Origin: Alphaproteobacteria bacterium
GTDB taxonomy: Bacteria; Pseudomonadota; Alphaproteobacteria; UBA9219
Direction of reading: 5' to 3'
NCBI GenBank assembly: GCA_031291435.1
Contig: JARLJC010000290.1
Span: forward strand, 1 to 64,000
DNA: 64,000 nt
Within the stretch, counting starts at the first letter, position 1; every line of letters begins with the position of its first letter. The notes beneath the pieces were generated by a model. The model ran no database searches and was not told the origin of the DNA. It saw only the letters and a program-made list of their open reading frames with translations. A program made the position numbers and the translations under genes. Below are positions 17,755 through 26,289 of the stretch, piece by piece.

Positions 17755-17941
17755 ATATCTGTCTCCCGATTGGTTGAAAAACTTAGGCGCAGCTTAGACA
17801 GCGCAGGGCAAGATTCGATAGCCCCCAGTCTCGCGCCGCACCATTTGCCCAAAACCGCCCGAAACGCTTTCTAACCCTTTGAATTCAGGCGGAAACCGCA
17901 GATCACCTTTTTATTAAGCAAAAGCGTGCTATATATAAAGC

Positions 17942-18250
17942 GTCGGCTTGCCGACTATGGCGATAAACGCTTTGTGGAATAGACGCTACGGACCCGGGGG
18001 CGGTACCCGGCGCCTCCACCACAATGACCGGTACTGCGGGTCATTCTTTGGGGGCGAAACAGGATCGACGTGCGTAGTAAAGACAGAGTTTTTGCCGGGC
18101 ATGATACCGCCCTTATCGGGTCACTTTTATAAATGCCAACGACAATGTTGACATGAGCAATGTTGCTATCGCTGCTTAATATCCGCTTGCGGAAGTAGAG
18201 TAGTTAGCACTTGATCGCGGTCCGGGGGGTACCGGGCAACAGAAACCCCC
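17942..18250 (+). ncRNA. ssrA: Circularly permuted two-piece tmRNA (ssrA)
   Basis: Acceptor-piece end CGCCTCCACCA (18011-18021) precedes the 5' acceptor GGGGGCGAAACAGGATCGACG (from 18050). The 7-bp acceptor stem GGGGGCG/CGCCTCC forms with one G-U pair. The intervening segment holds an AATGACC/GGTCATT hairpin. Outer ends are approximate. Confidence 0.92.
18135..18179 (+). other. tmRNA-encoded proteolysis tag ANDNVDMSNVAIAA
   Basis: GCC AAC GAC AAT GTT GAC ATG AGC AAT GTT GCT ATC GCT GCT TAA; ANDN start and hydrophobic AIAA end are typical of alphaproteobacterial tags. Confidence 0.9.
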
Positions 18251-18410
18251 CAATCTTTAGAGACTAGAGATAAGAGCGAGAAGAAGACGAGAAAGCAGGC
18301 ATGCTTTTGCTCTTGGCTTTTAACTGTGCGCCCTCTAGTTTCAATCTGATGCCGGGACACGAAGTAGAGTTTTTCTCTCCTTCTTCCTCTAACCCCTAGC
18401 CCCTAATCCT

Positions 18411-18890
18411 ATGTCCGAAGACCTCCTGCGTTACGACCTGATGATCGAAGCCGCGCTGCGCGATGTCGTGCGCGAGACGATGGAAACCGTCGGCCGCGAC
18501 GGGTTGCCCGGCGATCACCATTTCTACATCACCTTTCTAACCAAATTCCCCGGCGTCAAGGTTCCGGATTACCTGCGCAAGCAGTATCCAGACGAAATGA
18601 CCATCGTCCTGCAATATCAGTTCTTCGGGCTGAAACTGGAAGACGACTGCATTCATGTCACGCTGAGCTTCAACAATGTGAAAGAAAGCCTGGTCGTTCC
18701 CATCGATTCCATCACCACTTTCGCCGATCCCTCGGTCAATTTCGCGCTGCAGTTCCAGAATAGCGGCGATGACGGCGACGACGGCGAAAGCGACGGCCCC
18801 GACAGCCCCGACAGCGGCGGTTCGAGCGACAAGGAAAAAGAAGAAAAACGCGGCGAAGTCATCAGCCTCGACAAGTTCCGCAAGAAGTGA
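18411..18890 (+). CDS. sspB: SspB-alpha family ClpXP adaptor
   Basis: LRYDLMIEAALRDVVRETMETVGRDGLPGDHHFYITFLTKFPGVKVPDYLRKQYPDEMTIVLQYQF; acidic linker; C-terminal RGEVISLDKFRKK. Confidence 0.9.
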   Translation: MSEDLLRYDLMIEAALRDVVRETMETVGRDGLPGDHHFYITFLTKFPGVKVPDYLRKQYPDEMTIVLQYQFFGLKLEDDCIHVTLSFNNVKESLVVPIDSITTFADPSVNFALQFQNSGDDGDDGESDGPDSPDSGGSSDKEKEEKRGEVISLDKFRKK

Positions 18891-18891
18891 T
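18834..18891 (+). repeat. Direct repeat copy 1: sspB 3' end
   Basis: 58 bp matching 20218-20275 with 2 mismatches. Confidence 0.9.
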
Positions 18892-18901
18892 CTGACCCGT
18901 T

Positions 18902-20053
18902 TTACGGCTGGCGTTTGCTGCCGCGCGGTTTGATCTTTATCGACGGCAAAGGCGCCTTGGGGTGAAGAAACAAGGCGCTGTGATTGAGACTTGAAGCGTC
19001 GCGCGCGCCGGTGCCCAATGTCTCCTCCTCGATGATCTGCCTGAGATCGGCATTGAGAGTAGAGACCGGATTGATTTTGTCGGGATCAATGGGTTCCAGC
19101 TTGCCGAACCGCGGACGATCGGCTTCATGCGCGCCGTTGCGTATCGATTCAATCAGCTCGCCATAATAATTTCCCAAAATGCGCCGCATCACATACGGAA
19201 CGCTGCCGACAGTCTTGATCCCCGGCACGCCTTTTTCGTGACAGGCCCGGTCAATGGCAGAATTAAAATAATATTCGTCCAGAGAGCGTGGGATTTTTTC
19301 AAGCACTTCGTACAAGACCTGTACCAGTTCCCGATCATTTTCGTTGGCGAAGAGGCCAATGCGCGGACACAACCCCCACCTGTCGATCAGACCGGCAACG
19401 GAGGCGCTATCGGCGGAAAGACCGGTTTCCTGGCAGAGGATTTTTACAATTTCCTCTCTTGTGCGCGCCGACGCATCCAGCCCGTCGGCTTTCTGGCCGA
19501 CCCGCTTCATCAACGCGATCATGCCGTCGCTGACGCCCCGCCCAATGGTCGCCGTTGGCGCGAAGAAGGTATAAAGCTGAAGGCTGTTGAATTTGTCCGG
19601 CGCCGGAATCTGATTCAGGCGACGCCTGTTGAGCAATTCGTTATAAGCCCTGCGTATCTCGGGCATCGGCGACGATTCCAGATTACGATAGCCTCGCCAG
19701 TTAAACCCATTATGCAGATAAAAATAAGGCCCATCTTGGAAAGAATGGCGGCTATAATAAACGCTCGCCCCGGAAAAGCCGGGACGATCTTCATAGGCAA
19801 ACATCTGATCGCTCCGATACGAACCTTTGTTGCTGCGATCGAAAACGACCAGCGGCACAGCCGAGAAAGCCGCGATATATTGGGGGAGCGGATAGGGAAG
19901 ATCATCCGCCTCAAATTGCAGCATGCCGTCGAAAAAAGCCGGTATATATTCCGCCTTGCCTCCCTGGGGCTGAAAACCGGGCGGCAGCCGCCGCAGCCGG
20001 TCTTCGACATCGGCGAACGCGCTTTCCACTATGTTCCGAAGAACGTTATTCAT
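18902..20053 (-). CDS. Protein of unknown function (about 383 aa from the ATG at 20053; 406-aa ORF to 20122)
   Basis: Long ORF MNNVLRNIVESAFADVEDRLRRLPPGFQPQGGKAEYIPAFFDGML; no recognised family. Confidence 0.65.
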   Translation of the reverse strand: MNNVLRNIVESAFADVEDRLRRLPPGFQPQGGKAEYIPAFFDGMLQFEADDLPYPLPQYIAAFSAVPLVVFDRSNKGSYRSDQMFAYEDRPGFSGASVYYSRHSFQDGPYFYLHNGFNWRGYRNLESSPMPEIRRAYNELLNRRRLNQIPAPDKFNSLQLYTFFAPTATIGRGVSDGMIALMKRVGQKADGLDASARTREEIVKILCQETGLSADSASVAGLIDRWGLCPRIGLFANENDRELVQVLYEVLEKIPRSLDEYYFNSAIDRACHEKGVPGIKTVGSVPYVMRRILGNYYGELIESIRNGAHEADRPRFGKLEPIDPDKINPVSTLNADLRQIIEEETLGTGARDASSLNHSALFLHPKAPLPSIKIKPRGSKRQP

Positions 20054-20153
20054 TATCAAACAGGTCCGGTTAAATTTGCTTTTGCATGACGGGACTATAC
20101 AAAACCGGCGCAATCGCCTCAATAAGCCCTCACAGCTTTTATTTTCATAGCGT

Positions 20154-20190
20154 AAAATAAGGGCAAAATAGCTTGGCCAACCCTTATTTT
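20154..20190. terminator. Bidirectional hairpin terminator
   Basis: AAAATAAGGG (20154-20163)/CCCTTATTTT (20181-20190) followed by TCTTTG. Confidence 0.65.
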
Positions 20191-20217
20191 TCTTTGTATT
20201 AGTTCCTTACCCGAGGC

Positions 20218-20275
20218 GAAAAAGACGAAAAACGCGGCGAAGTCATCAACCTCGACAAGTTCCGCAAGAAGTGAT
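20218..20275 (+). pseudogene. Orphan duplicate of the sspB 3' end (encodes EKDEKRGEVINLDKFRKK*)
   Basis: 58-bp match to 18834-18891; in-frame TAG at 20200-20202 and no start codon before the homology. Confidence 0.88.
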
Positions 20276-20309: not shown

Positions 20310-20385
20310 GTCCCCTTCGTCTAGAGGCCTAGGACACCACCCTCTCACGGTGAGAACACGGGTTCAAATCCCGTAGGGGACGCCA
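20310..20385 (+). tRNA. tRNA-Glu (anticodon CTC), CCA encoded
   Basis: GTCCCCTTCGTCTAGAGGCCTAGGACACCACCCTCTCACGGTGAGAACACGGGTTCAAATCCCGTAGGGGACGCCA. Confidence 0.96.
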
Positions 20386-20432
20386 ACGATTTCAATGAGT
20401 TAGAAAGATATATCGCCCAAAATTAGGCTTCA

Positions 20433-20457
20433 TGGCTAATATTTGGCTAATATACAG
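20433..20457 (+). repeat. 25-bp direct repeat near left end of element 1
   Basis: TGGCTAATATTTGGCTAATATACAG, identical at 24533-24557. Confidence 0.9.
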
Positions 20458-20793
20458 CCTGAAACAACCTGAAACAGCCCCCTATTTTCTGATTCGTGGG
20501 CGAAGCTCCGAAATGGATCAAAACGGGTGCCAATGGGTGCCACCCCACACCTTGCGAAGCCTGCAACGGACATGAAGGTTTGGATCAATGCTCGATGTAA
20601 TCATAGCGCTGTGTTTTCCATCGGTTTGAACTACCAAGGATTCCTTAATAGTTGCCGCCGTGTTTGTTCCCCAGCCCTTGCAAAGATTCCCTCATGCAAC
20701 ATTTTCATGCTGTCACGGGTTGATGGGCAGCGCCCTCGCCAGTCGTGATGATGCCCCGCCCCTTCGGTGGGGTGACAGCACATTACTGGCAGC

Positions 20794-20847
20794 GTGTGAC
20801 AAAACACAAAGTGTGTGACAAACGCGGGGTGTGTGACAACGTCACAC
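20794..20847 (+). repeat. Iteron-like GTGTGACA array
   Basis: GTGTGACA at 20794, 20813 and 20831 (18-19-bp spacing) plus inverted GTCACAC at 20841. Confidence 0.6.
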
Positions 20848-21084
20848 GACCCACACCTTGCGAAGCCTGAAACGGCTCGGCCTTCCTGCCCCAAGCAGAA
20901 AAACGGGCATTCCTTGCTTGGCAAGCATCACCGCCATTGCCAGTGCGGAGCAGGAGTCGGTGGCATTCTTCTCGACAAAATCAGGGGTGTTTCGTGTAAC
21001 CATTAGGAATTTCCTTTGCGTAAGGGGATTGCAGAAAACGAAGGACAGCCCGCACCGCGCCAACGGTTAGCGGGCGTTTTCGTT

Positions 21085-21276
21085 TCAGGTGGATAGTTGG
21101 GCTGGTTTTTGGCTTAGGCTGGCGAGCCAGCGCTCAGCTTCGGTGCGCATCACGCCGGTACGTCGGCCACGCTTAATTATCGAAAGACGTTTTTCCTGTA
21201 TTTCTCTGTAAAATGCAGTCCGAGAAATTGCATAGCGTTGGCAAAACTCACTTACGGGATATACTTCTCTTTCCAT
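21085..21276 (-). CDS. AlpA/MerR-like helix-turn-helix protein (excisionase/regulator)
   Basis: MEREVYPVSEFCQRYAISRTAFYREIQEKRLSIIKRGRRTGVMRTEAERWLASL. Confidence 0.75.
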   Translation of the reverse strand: MEREVYPVSEFCQRYAISRTAFYREIQEKRLSIIKRGRRTGVMRTEAERWLASLSQKPAQLST

Positions 21277-21389
21277 GTTCTCCCCCTGTTGTTTTGCAGG
21301 ACATCCCTGCGTTCAGTGGGATAATCAGGGATTCAATACGGCGCTTAAACCGAAATAATATCGACCGTAACGAGAAAAGGCGGTAAATA

Positions 21390-22010
21390 TTATTTAGTCT
21401 TATTTGCCGTATCATCGGCAACGCCAAACAGACCCGACATGCCAGAAGTCAATGATGGGGCGTTTGCAAATAAGCTAAAGTCTGATTCATCATGAAGCAG
21501 GGAAAGTTTTGCAAGGGGAGACATGCCTTTCAAAGTTTTTCGATAGCGTGTTTCAATCGTTACTGCTGCTAGTTTTTTATATGCGGGGTTATTTTTATGC
21601 AGCCATTTGCTCGCTGACATTGGGCTAGCTTTACTTCTTTTCATTACCGACTGAACATCACGGATAAGCGTAAAAGCTTTATTGTATTCCCATTTCTTGG
21701 GTTTACCTGGACGGTTGCCCAATTGCAATCCCGGCACTACCTGTGCTGCAAAATACATAAGCATTATCAAATCATCTAAAGGATCAGACTTAGTAATATC
21801 AAATCCATAAGCAGCATATAGATCGGGAAGTTTTTTCCTCGCGTGATTAAGCCAATACTCAAATGGATCGACTCCATCTCCCGAATCTTTTTGAGGGAAA
21901 GGTATTGGCTCCCCTAATGCTTTCTTCCATTCCTTGCTTTTCCACTTTTTCAGTAGCGTGGGGTATTTTGGTGTTTTTTTCTGTTGTGTCATCCGCCCTC
22001 CGCAAGGCAT
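21390..22010 (-). CDS. Hypothetical protein (206 aa)
   Basis: ORF inside element 1; basic, no recognised motif. Confidence 0.55.
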   Translation of the reverse strand: MPCGGRMTQQKKTPKYPTLLKKWKSKEWKKALGEPIPFPQKDSGDGVDPFEYWLNHARKKLPDLYAAYGFDITKSDPLDDLIMLMYFAAQVVPGLQLGNRPGKPKKWEYNKAFTLIRDVQSVMKRSKASPMSASKWLHKNNPAYKKLAAVTIETRYRKTLKGMSPLAKLSLLHDESDFSLFANAPSLTSGMSGLFGVADDTANKTK

Positions 22011-22145
22011 CCGCAGAATAAAAGGCGCGGCGGTCTTGTGCGGAACAAGATTTTCGGGGATCAGCCTAGCCGTGCCAATAAAGACTATAATGCGTTCCGC
22101 AACAGGGGCAACTACCGAGGAATCCTTGGCAGTTCCTCCTCGTCG

Positions 22146-23048
22146 CTATTGCCATATCGGACGGGTCTGCCAGTCATCAGGGAAGCCCATTTCTTTTAGC
22201 CACTCCACATGGTTGATGAGCAAAGCCTTCAACTTGCCGCGCCAATGATGATTGGGCGACACACAGTCCATCAGGTGCAACAGGATCGTGAGCGTATTAT
22301 AAAGCTTGTGTGCTGAAACAAACTCTCCGACCAATGGTTTGGGCTTACTTATTGGGGCTTCGGGAGGCACACGGCTAAAATCCCTATCCCACAGGCGTGA
22401 ATGATGGGCGCATACGTTCCGCACGACAGACAGGTGATGCAACCACGATGCAAAAACAGACTCGTTGAGGCCGTACACGTTGGCAATCAATGATCGCGTG
22501 TGCATCGGCTTGAGATTAGCATACCACCGGGATAGAAGCCCCAGAGACATAACTTCGCACACAGCCCACACGGGCGGCAAATCTTCGGCATAGGTGGCCG
22601 TTAGATGTTGGATAAATACCTCGTCCGCGCGTTCCACCTCTTTGCGTAAATCGTCGAGATTTTTTTGCCAATGGAAATGCCTGACGGAAAGGCGTGAATC
22701 AAGGTGGGCGTGAGCGCCGTGCATATGACCAAGGCGATACGCCCACTGCGCTCTTGCAGAAACTTCGACACGTTCGATAGCATCTAAAAGCAGAAGCCGC
22801 AGCTCGCGATCAAAAACGTACAGATTCACAACATCTTCGAATCTTGCGCCTTCTCTAAACCGATGCCCGGCATGATCGCTCTCGAATGGCAGCCAGTAAG
22901 CGCCTAAGCGGTAATAATTGATGTGCTGGAGATAAATCTTTGCCGCTTCTTCGTCAGCAATCAGCATGCCGCGTTCGCGCAGCTTCCTGATTTGTTCGGC
23001 GTATGTTGTCGCTGGTTTGAGATAGGGGCGTTTCGTCATAACGCACAC
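22146..23048 (-). CDS. Abi_2 (AbiD/AbiF-like) abortive infection protein, HEPN-type
   Basis: INYYRLGAYWLPF..., YVFDRELRLLLLDAIERVEVSARAQWAYRLG, and RNVCAHHSRLWDR (R-x4-H HEPN motif). Confidence 0.85.
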   Translation of the reverse strand: MCVMTKRPYLKPATTYAEQIRKLRERGMLIADEEAAKIYLQHINYYRLGAYWLPFESDHAGHRFREGARFEDVVNLYVFDRELRLLLLDAIERVEVSARAQWAYRLGHMHGAHAHLDSRLSVRHFHWQKNLDDLRKEVERADEVFIQHLTATYAEDLPPVWAVCEVMSLGLLSRWYANLKPMHTRSLIANVYGLNESVFASWLHHLSVVRNVCAHHSRLWDRDFSRVPPEAPISKPKPLVGEFVSAHKLYNTLTILLHLMDCVSPNHHWRGKLKALLINHVEWLKEMGFPDDWQTRPIWQ

Positions 23049-23218
23049 CCCAGAAAAAAGTGACCCGCCGGTTTGAGGATACGCTTTCGCGCATAGCCTT
23101 GGCGGGTTCTATTGATGCCGATTATAAGCATATCGATCCTAACAGCAAGTTAAAATTTCTCCCGCACTCACACAGGGCGGTGGAAAGGGTGACTCTCTTT
23201 GCCTTGATTCTCAAGCAC

Positions 23219-24526
23219 TTATTTCTTACCTGTTAAAGCCGTCACATTGCTCTTTTCCGCAATCCCCAGCGTCGGGAAATTTTGCCGGATAGTGTCGGCA
23301 ACATAAGACGGCGACAGGTGGGCATAATGCTTTTCCGTCATGCGCGTATCAGCATGGCCTAACTGCTTGGCGATAACGGGCATCGGGACGCCTTTCATAG
23401 CCAACATGCTGCCGTGCGTATGGCGCAGGACGTGAAAGGAGATTGCGGGTTTAATCTTGGCGCGGCGGCAAGCCTCGATAAGCGGTCTTTTCTGGTGAGA
23501 TGTTTTCCATTCCTCGCTGTCTTCGCGGGTAAAGATAAACCCAGCCCCCTGTTTATTGGCCGTGATTGTTTCAAAGAATGTCTTGCCTTCATTCGTCAAA
23601 ACGACATGGCGGGCTTTGCCGCTTTTGCTCATGCGTACCGTCACGGTTCCCGCGTCGGGGTTAAAGTCGTTCTTTATCAAGGCGCACAATTCCCCATACC
23701 GGCATCCGGTCAGCAATGCGCCTTTGACAATAAGACGGAAATCATCCGGGCAGGTATTCACAAGGCGGGTGCATTCGGCCTCGGTCAGGTAACGCACCAC
23801 TGGAGCGTCAACATTGCGAAACGGCTTTACCTTGCGCCACGCCGTATCGCTTGCCACTTTGCCCTCTTTCCATGCGTAATTCAGCGCAGCCTTTAGAACG
23901 GTCAGAATACGGTTGGCGGTGGCGCGGCGTCGGCGCACGGCATCGGCGTCATCGGTGGCATGGGTGCGGGTATTGCGTTTTTCGGCACTCTTGCCCGTGC
24001 GCAGCATTGCCGCACTGGTCGCAATATCATGGTGCCAATTCGCTATTTTTTTCGTGTTGAGGCGGGCAAGCTGAATTTTACCCAAAGTCGGCTTGATATG
24101 CGTTTCTATGGTGGATGTGGTGAAGGCAACGCCCTTGCCCTCCACGCTGTAATATTTCAGGTAGTCCCGAAGGGCATCCTCTACCGTATAGGTGCCGTCA
24201 AACACCTCTTCCTCGCCGGAGTCCTTCCGCTTCTCCTCCTCAAACCATTTACGCGCCGCCCTCTGCGCTTGGTCAAAACTAAGCGCAGTCTTGCCGTCCG
24301 CATCCTGTGCATCGTCGGCAACGCCCAGGCGCACTTCCTTGTATTGCCGCGCCTCTGTAAATCGCCGCCCAACCCAAGCCCCGCCTTTGGGGGCTTTGCG
24401 ATAGCCAAGATGCAACCCGCTCTCCAGCAGCCGCCAATGCGGTTCTGAGCGCGTAGGGAGCTTCTTTCGAGCCTCCCTATCCTTCAGATTTTTTTCCTTC
24501 AGTTGCCGTCCCATTTTCGCCCCCAT
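23219..24526 (-). CDS. Tyrosine-type site-specific integrase
   Basis: TGCRYGELCALIKNDF, FHVLRHTHGSMLAM, KQLGHADTRMTEKHYAHL. Confidence 0.95.
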   Translation of the reverse strand: MGAKMGRQLKEKNLKDREARKKLPTRSEPHWRLLESGLHLGYRKAPKGGAWVGRRFTEARQYKEVRLGVADDAQDADGKTALSFDQAQRAARKWFEEEKRKDSGEEEVFDGTYTVEDALRDYLKYYSVEGKGVAFTTSTIETHIKPTLGKIQLARLNTKKIANWHHDIATSAAMLRTGKSAEKRNTRTHATDDADAVRRRRATANRILTVLKAALNYAWKEGKVASDTAWRKVKPFRNVDAPVVRYLTEAECTRLVNTCPDDFRLIVKGALLTGCRYGELCALIKNDFNPDAGTVTVRMSKSGKARHVVLTNEGKTFFETITANKQGAGFIFTREDSEEWKTSHQKRPLIEACRRAKIKPAISFHVLRHTHGSMLAMKGVPMPVIAKQLGHADTRMTEKHYAHLSPSYVADTIRQNFPTLGIAEKSNVTALTGKK

Positions 24527-24532
24527 AAGCCG

Positions 24533-24557
24533 TGGCTAATATTTGGCTAATATACAG
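24533..24557 (+). repeat. 25-bp direct repeat near right end of element 1
   Basis: Identical to 20433-20457. Confidence 0.9.
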
Positions 24558-24645
24558 TGAGGGTCAGTCAGGTTCAAGCTGGTTCGTGGAATGCCTTCTA
24601 TTATTGATTATTATTGATTATATTTAGTTTTGAAATCTGTGGGGG

Positions 24646-26289
24646 TCAGCCGGATACGCCTAAACCATCCCTCTCACGGTGAGAACACGGGTTCAAATCC
24701 CGTAGGGGACGCCAACACGGTATGAAACTGGGCACTTCGCCAGCGACAATGTTTCCGCCGTTTGCCACAAGAGCCACCAAAGACGAATTTGCGCCGGAAA
24801 TGACCATTTCCCGCCCCTTCACCCGTATTTCGCTCAAGACCGCCTTGAGATAGGCGCGGGAATAGGCTGTGGAAGCCGTCAGGCGGTCACGCAGGACGCG
24901 CGTTACCGCTTCAAGCCGCTTTGGGGTGATAACGCCCAAGGGCATTTGTTGCTTGCGCTTAAGCCCTGCCAGTTCAAGCAAGATGGATTGTTTTTTCGCG
25001 CTATGTTGCCGCGCCCTGTCGCTGATAAAGTCACGCTCAACAATGCCCTGCTCGATAGCGTCCAAAAGGCGATTTTGGGCTTGCTCGACCTCTTTTAATT
25101 CCGCTTCCAGTTGTTTAAGGCGCGGTTTTTCCTCGCCGCCTTTCTTGGCAAGTTCACGGCTCAAGGTTTTAACAATTTCCGCGATATGCTCCGGCGTACA
25201 GACTTTTTGCCGGAAAGCGTCCAGAACCAAGCCATCCAGTTTATCGGCGGGGATGTTGCCAGACGGACAGGCGGTGTTGCCCTTGCTCATCCGCGCCGTG
25301 CATTTGTAATAGCGATAACGCCCACCTTTGCCCGTCACGATAATCATGCTGGTGCCGCAGCATCCGCACTTCAAAAGTCCTGTTAAAAGCGTGGGTGAAG
25401 TCTCGCGGCGCGGGGCGCACATTTTGGGCGTGTTCGCTGCGCGTAATCTTGTCGCGGCATCGAATAAATCCTGCTCGACAATCACAGGAACAGGGACTTT
25501 GACCCATTCCGCCTCGTCTTTGATTTTCCGCGTTTTCGAGTCCAGCTTGTTGAACACATGAAGGCCGCAATAAGTTGTGCTGGATAAAACCTCGTAAACC
25601 TTCTGAACGCGCCATTTCTTGCCGCGCATGTAAATGCCGCGTTGATTGAGCGTTGACGCGATTTCTTTCATGCCGATGCGCGGCGCATTTTCGCCGTGGA
25701 CATAAAGGGTAAAAATCTTTCGCACAATCTCGGCTTCGGCTGGATTTATCGCCAGACGCTTCTTGATGCGCCCTCGCGTGCCTGTTTGTCCGGCATCGAC
25801 GGTTTTATAACCGAACGGCGCATTTGAACCGTTGAAATATCCTTGCCGTGCATTCTCATTCATCCCGCGCAAGGTATGCTTGGCGATTTCCTTGCTCTGA
25901 TATTCGTCAAACAGCATGAAAATTTGCCGTTGCATCTCGCCGGATGGGTCATTGCCTGTCTGTTGCGTGATGGAGACAAGTTCAACGCCGGATTTTTTCA
26001 GCGTCTTTTGATACATCGCCCCCATGACCAAATCGCGGAAGAAACGCGAAAGGCTATGAACGACGACCGCCTGAAACGGCGCGGGGTTAAGGCTGGCTTC
26101 ACTCATCATCCGTTGAAGTTCCGGCCTCTTATCGTCCGTAGCCGTTGCGCCATGTTCCACAAATTCTTGAACGACGACATGACCGTTACGCTCCGCCCAC
26201 GAGCGCATTTGTCGCAGTTGGTCGGGAATGGAAAGCCCGTTTTCCTCCTGCCTATCCGTAGAGACACGCGCATAAAGGGCAATCAGCAT
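24646..26289 (-). CDS. Large serine recombinase
   Basis: LIALYARVSTDRQEENGLSIPDQLRQMRSWA; zinc ribbon CGCCGTSMIIVTGKGGRYRYYKC; C-terminal WRPLRDLNPCSHRERDG encoded by the tRNA-Glu fragment. Confidence 0.94.
   Translation of the reverse strand: MLIALYARVSTDRQEENGLSIPDQLRQMRSWAERNGHVVVQEFVEHGATATDDKRPELQRMMSEASLNPAPFQAVVVHSLSRFFRDLVMGAMYQKTLKKSGVELVSITQQTGNDPSGEMQRQIFMLFDEYQSKEIAKHTLRGMNENARQGYFNGSNAPFGYKTVDAGQTGTRGRIKKRLAINPAEAEIVRKIFTLYVHGENAPRIGMKEIASTLNQRGIYMRGKKWRVQKVYEVLSSTTYCGLHVFNKLDSKTRKIKDEAEWVKVPVPVIVEQDLFDAATRLRAANTPKMCAPRRETSPTLLTGLLKCGCCGTSMIIVTGKGGRYRYYKCTARMSKGNTACPSGNIPADKLDGLVLDAFRQKVCTPEHIAEIVKTLSRELAKKGGEEKPRLKQLEAELKEVEQAQNRLLDAIEQGIVERDFISDRARQHSAKKQSILLELAGLKRKQQMPLGVITPKRLEAVTRVLRDRLTASTAYSRAYLKAVLSEIRVKGREMVISGANSSLVALVANGGNIVAGEVPSFIPCWRPLRDLNPCSHRERDGLGVSG

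Follow-up and report, generated by a model that had tools for sequence, protein, structure and literature searches.

A single-gene insertion between sspB and tRNA-Glu is flanked by two copies of the sspB 3' end in an alphaproteobacterial genome

How does a single gene come to lie behind sspB with the last codons of sspB repeated on its far side? The question arises in the window analysed here, a 64-kb stretch of DNA from an alphaproteobacterial metagenome bin. The resident sspB is intact (18411..18890, plus strand, 159 aa, Pfam SspB E=9e-43). Its last 57 bp make up the first copy of a direct repeat (18834..18891, plus strand), identified by comparison of the repeats and of the congeners as the functional 3' end, with the tail ...EVISLDKFRKK*. 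The second copy (20218..20275, plus strand) follows at a spacing of 1384 bp and is identical at 56 of 58 bp; both terminate in TGA plus one T, one base past the stop codon. An in-frame TAG at 20200-20202 shuts the reading frame above copy 2, which has no start codon and lies 34 bp before tRNA-Glu (CTC, 20310..20385, plus strand), the native right neighbour of sspB according to congener gene order. The repeat, its shared TGA, the in-frame TAG and the distance to tRNA-Glu had been described in the original prediction and were all reproduced. Within a spacing of 9 kb the sspB repeat is the longest direct repeat of the window, and the only others are the attachment repeat of tRNA-Glu and a 25-bp repeat, both of which belong to an element at that tRNA gene; the sspB repeat is therefore not a product of chance. 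Directly upstream of sspB lies a permuted two-piece tmRNA gene (17929-18270), and the tmRNA-sspB neighbourhood is retained in many relatives.

The two copies enclose 1326 bp of foreign DNA (18892..20217, no strand assigned) with 53% G+C, against 57% for the window and 59% for the left flank; it is absent from the congeners and occupies a single locus in its own genome. No recombinase is encoded between the copies, as the prediction had stated and a Pfam search bore out. No repeats were found at the ends of the insert, and the junction of gene X with copy 2 has no repeat or inverted repeat. Nearly the whole insert is filled by one gene, here called gene X (18902..20053, minus strand), which is convergent with sspB; its stop codon is 10 bp from copy 1 and the region upstream of it measures 164 bp. 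One gene had indeed been predicted here, but at 406 aa, a length reached only from a TTG (20122), on the minus strand; the first ATG (20053) gives 383 aa. A promoter-like site, TTGAGG-17-TATAGT (20094..20122, minus strand), was recognised by consensus match only, and chance is expected to give such sites.

Gene X has no match in Pfam, PHROGs, PADLOC or NCBIfam, and searches of viral contigs, GTDB contigs, phages, plasmids and PDB sequences gave no relative. All congeners lack it. Its sole relative in 33 genomes of the order is a 331-aa protein in genome G032, a weak one with 26% identity in the alignment, placed in the unrelated context of a gcvP-like gene and a carbamoyltransferase; this locus was rejected as a second scar as it has no flanking repeats. 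A single-sequence AlphaFold model was uninformative (mean pLDDT 37.5). Sporadic occurrence and a promoter-like site of its own are consistent with gene X being an accessory gene.

Comparison with relatives settles what was added. In seven of nine congeners (G001, G004-G009) the sspB stop codon is followed 10-60 bp on by the same tRNA-Glu, with a single sspB 3' end; in the other two (G002 and G003) tRNA-Glu is not beside sspB. Each congener has exactly one sspB 3' end, and two were never seen elsewhere in the order. The sequence past copy 2 (TGATTTAA...) is similar to the native spacer of G007 (TGATTTAAAA). Because copy 1 is joined leftward to native sspB, copy 2 is joined rightward to native DNA, and the congeners show the empty site, about 1.38 kb has been added in this lineage. 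The insertion of that size between sspB and tRNA-Glu that had been predicted is thus confirmed, together with the duplication or rebuilding of the sspB 3' end; neither an intact second sspB-like gene in relatives nor gene X conserved at the locus without the repeat was found.

The same empty sites, where sspB directly adjoins tRNA-Glu, already contradict the idea that sspB was duplicated in tandem long ago and that its second copy decayed to the last 58 bp. Such a history would explain why copy 2 is a startless sspB fragment, but it would have to leave those 58 bp at 97% identity with no other trace of sspB in the insert, and no relative carries a second sspB 3' end nearby; we consider it extremely improbable. 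An assembly chimera is hardly more credible: the metagenome bin consists of 373 contigs with an estimated contamination of 6.5%, yet the junction between gene X and copy 2 offers no shared sequence for an assembler to cross, both flanks match the native congener order, and similar scars, described below, occur on several contigs and in another assembly, that of congener G003.

The prediction had further implied an element of the kind that targets gene 3' ends. The 1.38-kb unit would then be an integrase-less element, either mobilised in trans or a deletion remnant resembling a cis-mobilisable element (CIME), with an attP that imitates the end of sspB and reconstitutes the gene, and the two copies would be hybrid att sites. 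Several features agree with this. The 58-bp repeat places the target's 3' end on each side of the unit and stops at the stop codon, sspB is restored, and the unit is compact; in addition, 22 tyrosine-recombinase matches occur in the genome, and the adjoining tRNA-Glu holds a genuine integrase element. That element measures 4.3 kb (20340-24716) and is bounded by 48-bp att repeats (20340-20387 / 24669-24716), with 25-bp arm repeats just inside each end (20433-20457 / 24533-24557). On its minus strand it encodes a small HTH protein (21085-21276), a 206-aa protein without assignment (21390-22010), AbiD/Abi_2 (22146-23048) and a tyrosine integrase (23219-24526). Its att sequence is unrelated to the sspB repeat. 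A large serine recombinase of 547 aa (24646-26289) has a 3' end that overlaps the distal att repeat, which suggests a second element stacked behind the first. At a separate locus, a 5.1-kb stretch (L205:4232-9362) is framed by 51-bp att repeats at tRNA-Val, with a tyrosine recombinase on the same contig.

For sspB itself, neither a recombinase in the unit nor a partner element with the same att site was found. The genome has no third sspB 3'-end site at up to 3 mismatches, the neighbourhoods of its integrases share at most 14 nt with the sspB site, which is about chance level, and the 22 recombinase matches disclosed no further site. No other sspB-targeting element came to light: 80 fetched alphaproteobacterial sspB loci carry none, and viral contigs hold nothing matching the sspB 3'-end patterns. 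In a class-wide sample with 205 pattern-positive genomes, two matches occur, apart from this genome, only in G349 and G136, and there on separate contigs. G349 was rejected as a second occupied site: its bin combines two strains, one of which has vapBC between sspB and fumC, with no 3' duplication. In another alphaproteobacterial genus (L153 / L155) a VapBC-type toxin-antitoxin pair lies between sspB and fumC without a 3'-end duplication; elsewhere in that genus sspB stands immediately before fumC. An integrase-driven mobile element at sspB is not supported by these searches.

The arrangement at sspB has counterparts. An intact gene A, one unrelated gene X and a displaced copy of the last 44-130 bp of A recur in this order at three other genes of the same genome. 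An acyl-CoA dehydrogenase (ACAD) gene is followed by a DUF817 gene and a 96-bp displaced end (L194); this case occupies a 2-kb contig, C14, which could be a contaminant in a bin with 6.5% contamination. A nitronate monooxygenase (NMO) gene is followed by a gene for a 198-aa RHH-domain protein and a 44-bp displaced end (L251, contig C218), and a BBP2 porin gene by a 177-aa orphan gene and a displaced end of about 130 bp with small deletions (L247, C214). At the NMO locus, gene A lies close to the next gene without an inserted gene in seven of nine congeners, and none of the 23 other family genomes searched has the 198-aa gene; at the porin locus an empty site is not verifiable. The polarity is constant, as it is always the 3' end that is repeated and the gene that is kept whole, and in all four cases of this genome the repeat ends no more than 4 nt from the stop codon of A. 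Congener G003 has a case of its own, with a helicase-like gene, a lipoprotein gene and a displaced 103-bp helicase 3' end at 86% nucleotide identity (L294:969-3530).

An automated scan returned four scars in 623 kb of this genome (about 22% of it) and one weak 32-bp match in 835 kb of other alphaproteobacterial DNA; the latter consists entirely of sspB neighbourhoods, which makes the enrichment indicative and not a rate. In G003 the same setting returned none in 369 kb, and a relaxed end rule returned one, the real case. Several direct repeats at control loci were rejected as scars, being paralogous genes, internal repeats or very short ORFs, and a mirror-image search for 5'-end duplications gave a few matches, which we took for att sites, paralogs or very short ORFs. 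A 48-bp repeat in L207 was also rejected: its two copies are IS ends that bracket a methyltransferase gene, which sits within a broken IS5-like element with 48-bp direct repeats of the IS end on both sides (L207:11216-12460). The porin locus additionally holds a palindromic dispersed repeat of about 200 bp (L247:17002-17207), MITE/REP-like, with dozens of copies in this genome and shorter pieces in some congeners.

That three unrelated genes of this genome bear the same scar argues for a sequence-independent process. With unrelated repeats at each of them, a site-specific origin would need a different lost integrase every time, and we regard an integrase-less element at sspB as an unlikely explanation, though one to be taken seriously.

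The differences between the copies tell more about their origin. Compared codon by codon at four loci, they amount to 18 synonymous against 7 nonsynonymous changes (P = 2e-7), where a synonymous share of 18-25% is expected. Taken singly, the G003 case shows 11 to 3 (P = 1e-5) and the ACAD case 5 to 1. At sspB both differences are nonsynonymous (E to D and S to N) and none is synonymous; the signal is carried by the other loci, and sspB is silent in the test. The synonymous excess at the sister loci implies that both copies were marked by selection as coding sequence, and they look like two functional alleles, one of the donor and one of the recipient, rather than a copy and its drifted duplicate.

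This bears on another possibility, an in situ insertion at sspB with a long target duplication. In the pattern of Nobusato et al. 2000, as PMC1643837 describes it, single genes of Helicobacter pylori are inserted between long direct target repeats, with the empty site in a related strain. The overall anatomy at sspB is the same: relatives show an empty site, and a long direct repeat of the target surrounds a foreign gene. Such copies would first be identical and then drift neutrally, and the two nonsynonymous differences of sspB, with no synonymous one, are what an in situ copy that drifted later is expected to show. The sister loci do not fit. Their copies differ mainly at synonymous positions, and all four repeats of this genome end at stop codons; neither is expected if an arbitrary stretch of resident target is duplicated. 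A long target duplication therefore appears improbable.

We propose instead that the sspB 3' end was displaced by one-sided homology, that is, by homology-facilitated illegitimate recombination (HFIR). We judge it the best explanation, with slightly more than even confidence, and it is the simplest one to account for every locus. On the incoming fragment, possibly acquired by natural DNA uptake, the end of an sspB allele would have been followed by gene X. Homologous recombination would have taken place between this fragment and the resident sspB inside the shared 3' end, and the far end, past gene X, would have been joined illegitimately, with no homology, at a point some 57 bp before the stop codon of the resident gene. 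The outcome would be a full-length sspB, its last codons possibly donor-derived, with gene X behind it and, between gene X and tRNA-Glu, the displaced 3' end of the resident gene. Such an event would not require a dedicated recombinase. Every repeat would end at a stop codon because the DNA past the stop differs between donor and recipient, so that homology ends there. What is seen agrees on two counts: the repeat ends within 4 nt of the stop codon in four of four own-genome cases, and the copies resemble two alleles, by a synonymous excess that holds across four loci and not for sspB alone. Illegitimate recombination of this one-sided kind is known from experiments on competent bacteria and on E. 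coli conjugation (PMC3240628). Several points count against displacement. The differences at sspB itself are both nonsynonymous, and the donor arrangement, gene X straight after sspB with no scar, is hypothetical: searches of 33 genomes from the order, 386 from the class and the GTDB contigs gave none, and donors may be unsampled. The absence of the 198-aa gene of the NMO case from 23 other family genomes is of the same kind, and the small contig of the ACAD case and the unverifiable empty site of the porin case also weigh against it.

The recurrence at other genes raises a broader idea, that this lineage has a general, recombinase-free route by which single genes are added directly behind ordinary genes, the 3' end always being exchanged and the old end left as a scar. 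We offer it tentatively, as a possibility that is on balance doubtful. If it were true, the scars could be counted, giving a genome-wide record of one-gene acquisitions. The entry of single genes without a recombinase into bacterial chromosomes is usually inferred rather than seen; here it appears to have left a readable scar at housekeeping genes, recognisable by its polarity, by the empty sites in relatives and by the signs of donor and recipient alleles. How much gene gain one-sided recombination contributes thereby becomes something to be counted in Micavibrio-like Alphaproteobacteria, a natural and uncultured group. A caution also follows: not every 3'-end duplication should be read as an integrase attachment site.

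Several known systems share parts of this anatomy. CIMEs, described in the literature as att-flanked elements that lack an integrase, resemble the sspB unit in having repeats of a gene's 3' end on both sides and no recombinase; they differ in that no partner element sharing its att site was found for the sspB unit and that a single genome here holds several unrelated targets. In Neisseria, minimal mobile elements undergo exchange by way of the homology on either side of them, and a 3'-end duplication scar does not form part of their definition. They also place a non-core gene between two conserved neighbours without a recombinase, whereas the sspB locus has its 3'-end scar and no alternative cargo was seen there. 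The long target duplications of Helicobacter pylori, as PMC1643837 describes them, share the foreign gene between long target repeats and the empty site in relatives; the present case differs from them in its stop-codon repeat ends, its allele-like sister copies and a cargo that is not a restriction-modification system. The closest in proposed mechanism are the T6SS effector/immunity arrays and Rhs orphan tips, for which 3'-end displacement has been put forward as homology-facilitated illegitimate recombination (PMC5361080). In both settings a homology-anchored incoming module would replace the 3' end of a gene and leave the old end downstream, behind the new gene; there the event affects a polymorphic toxin gene, with a divergent toxin domain as the old end, whereas here it affects housekeeping genes, in which the displaced and the live end hardly differ.
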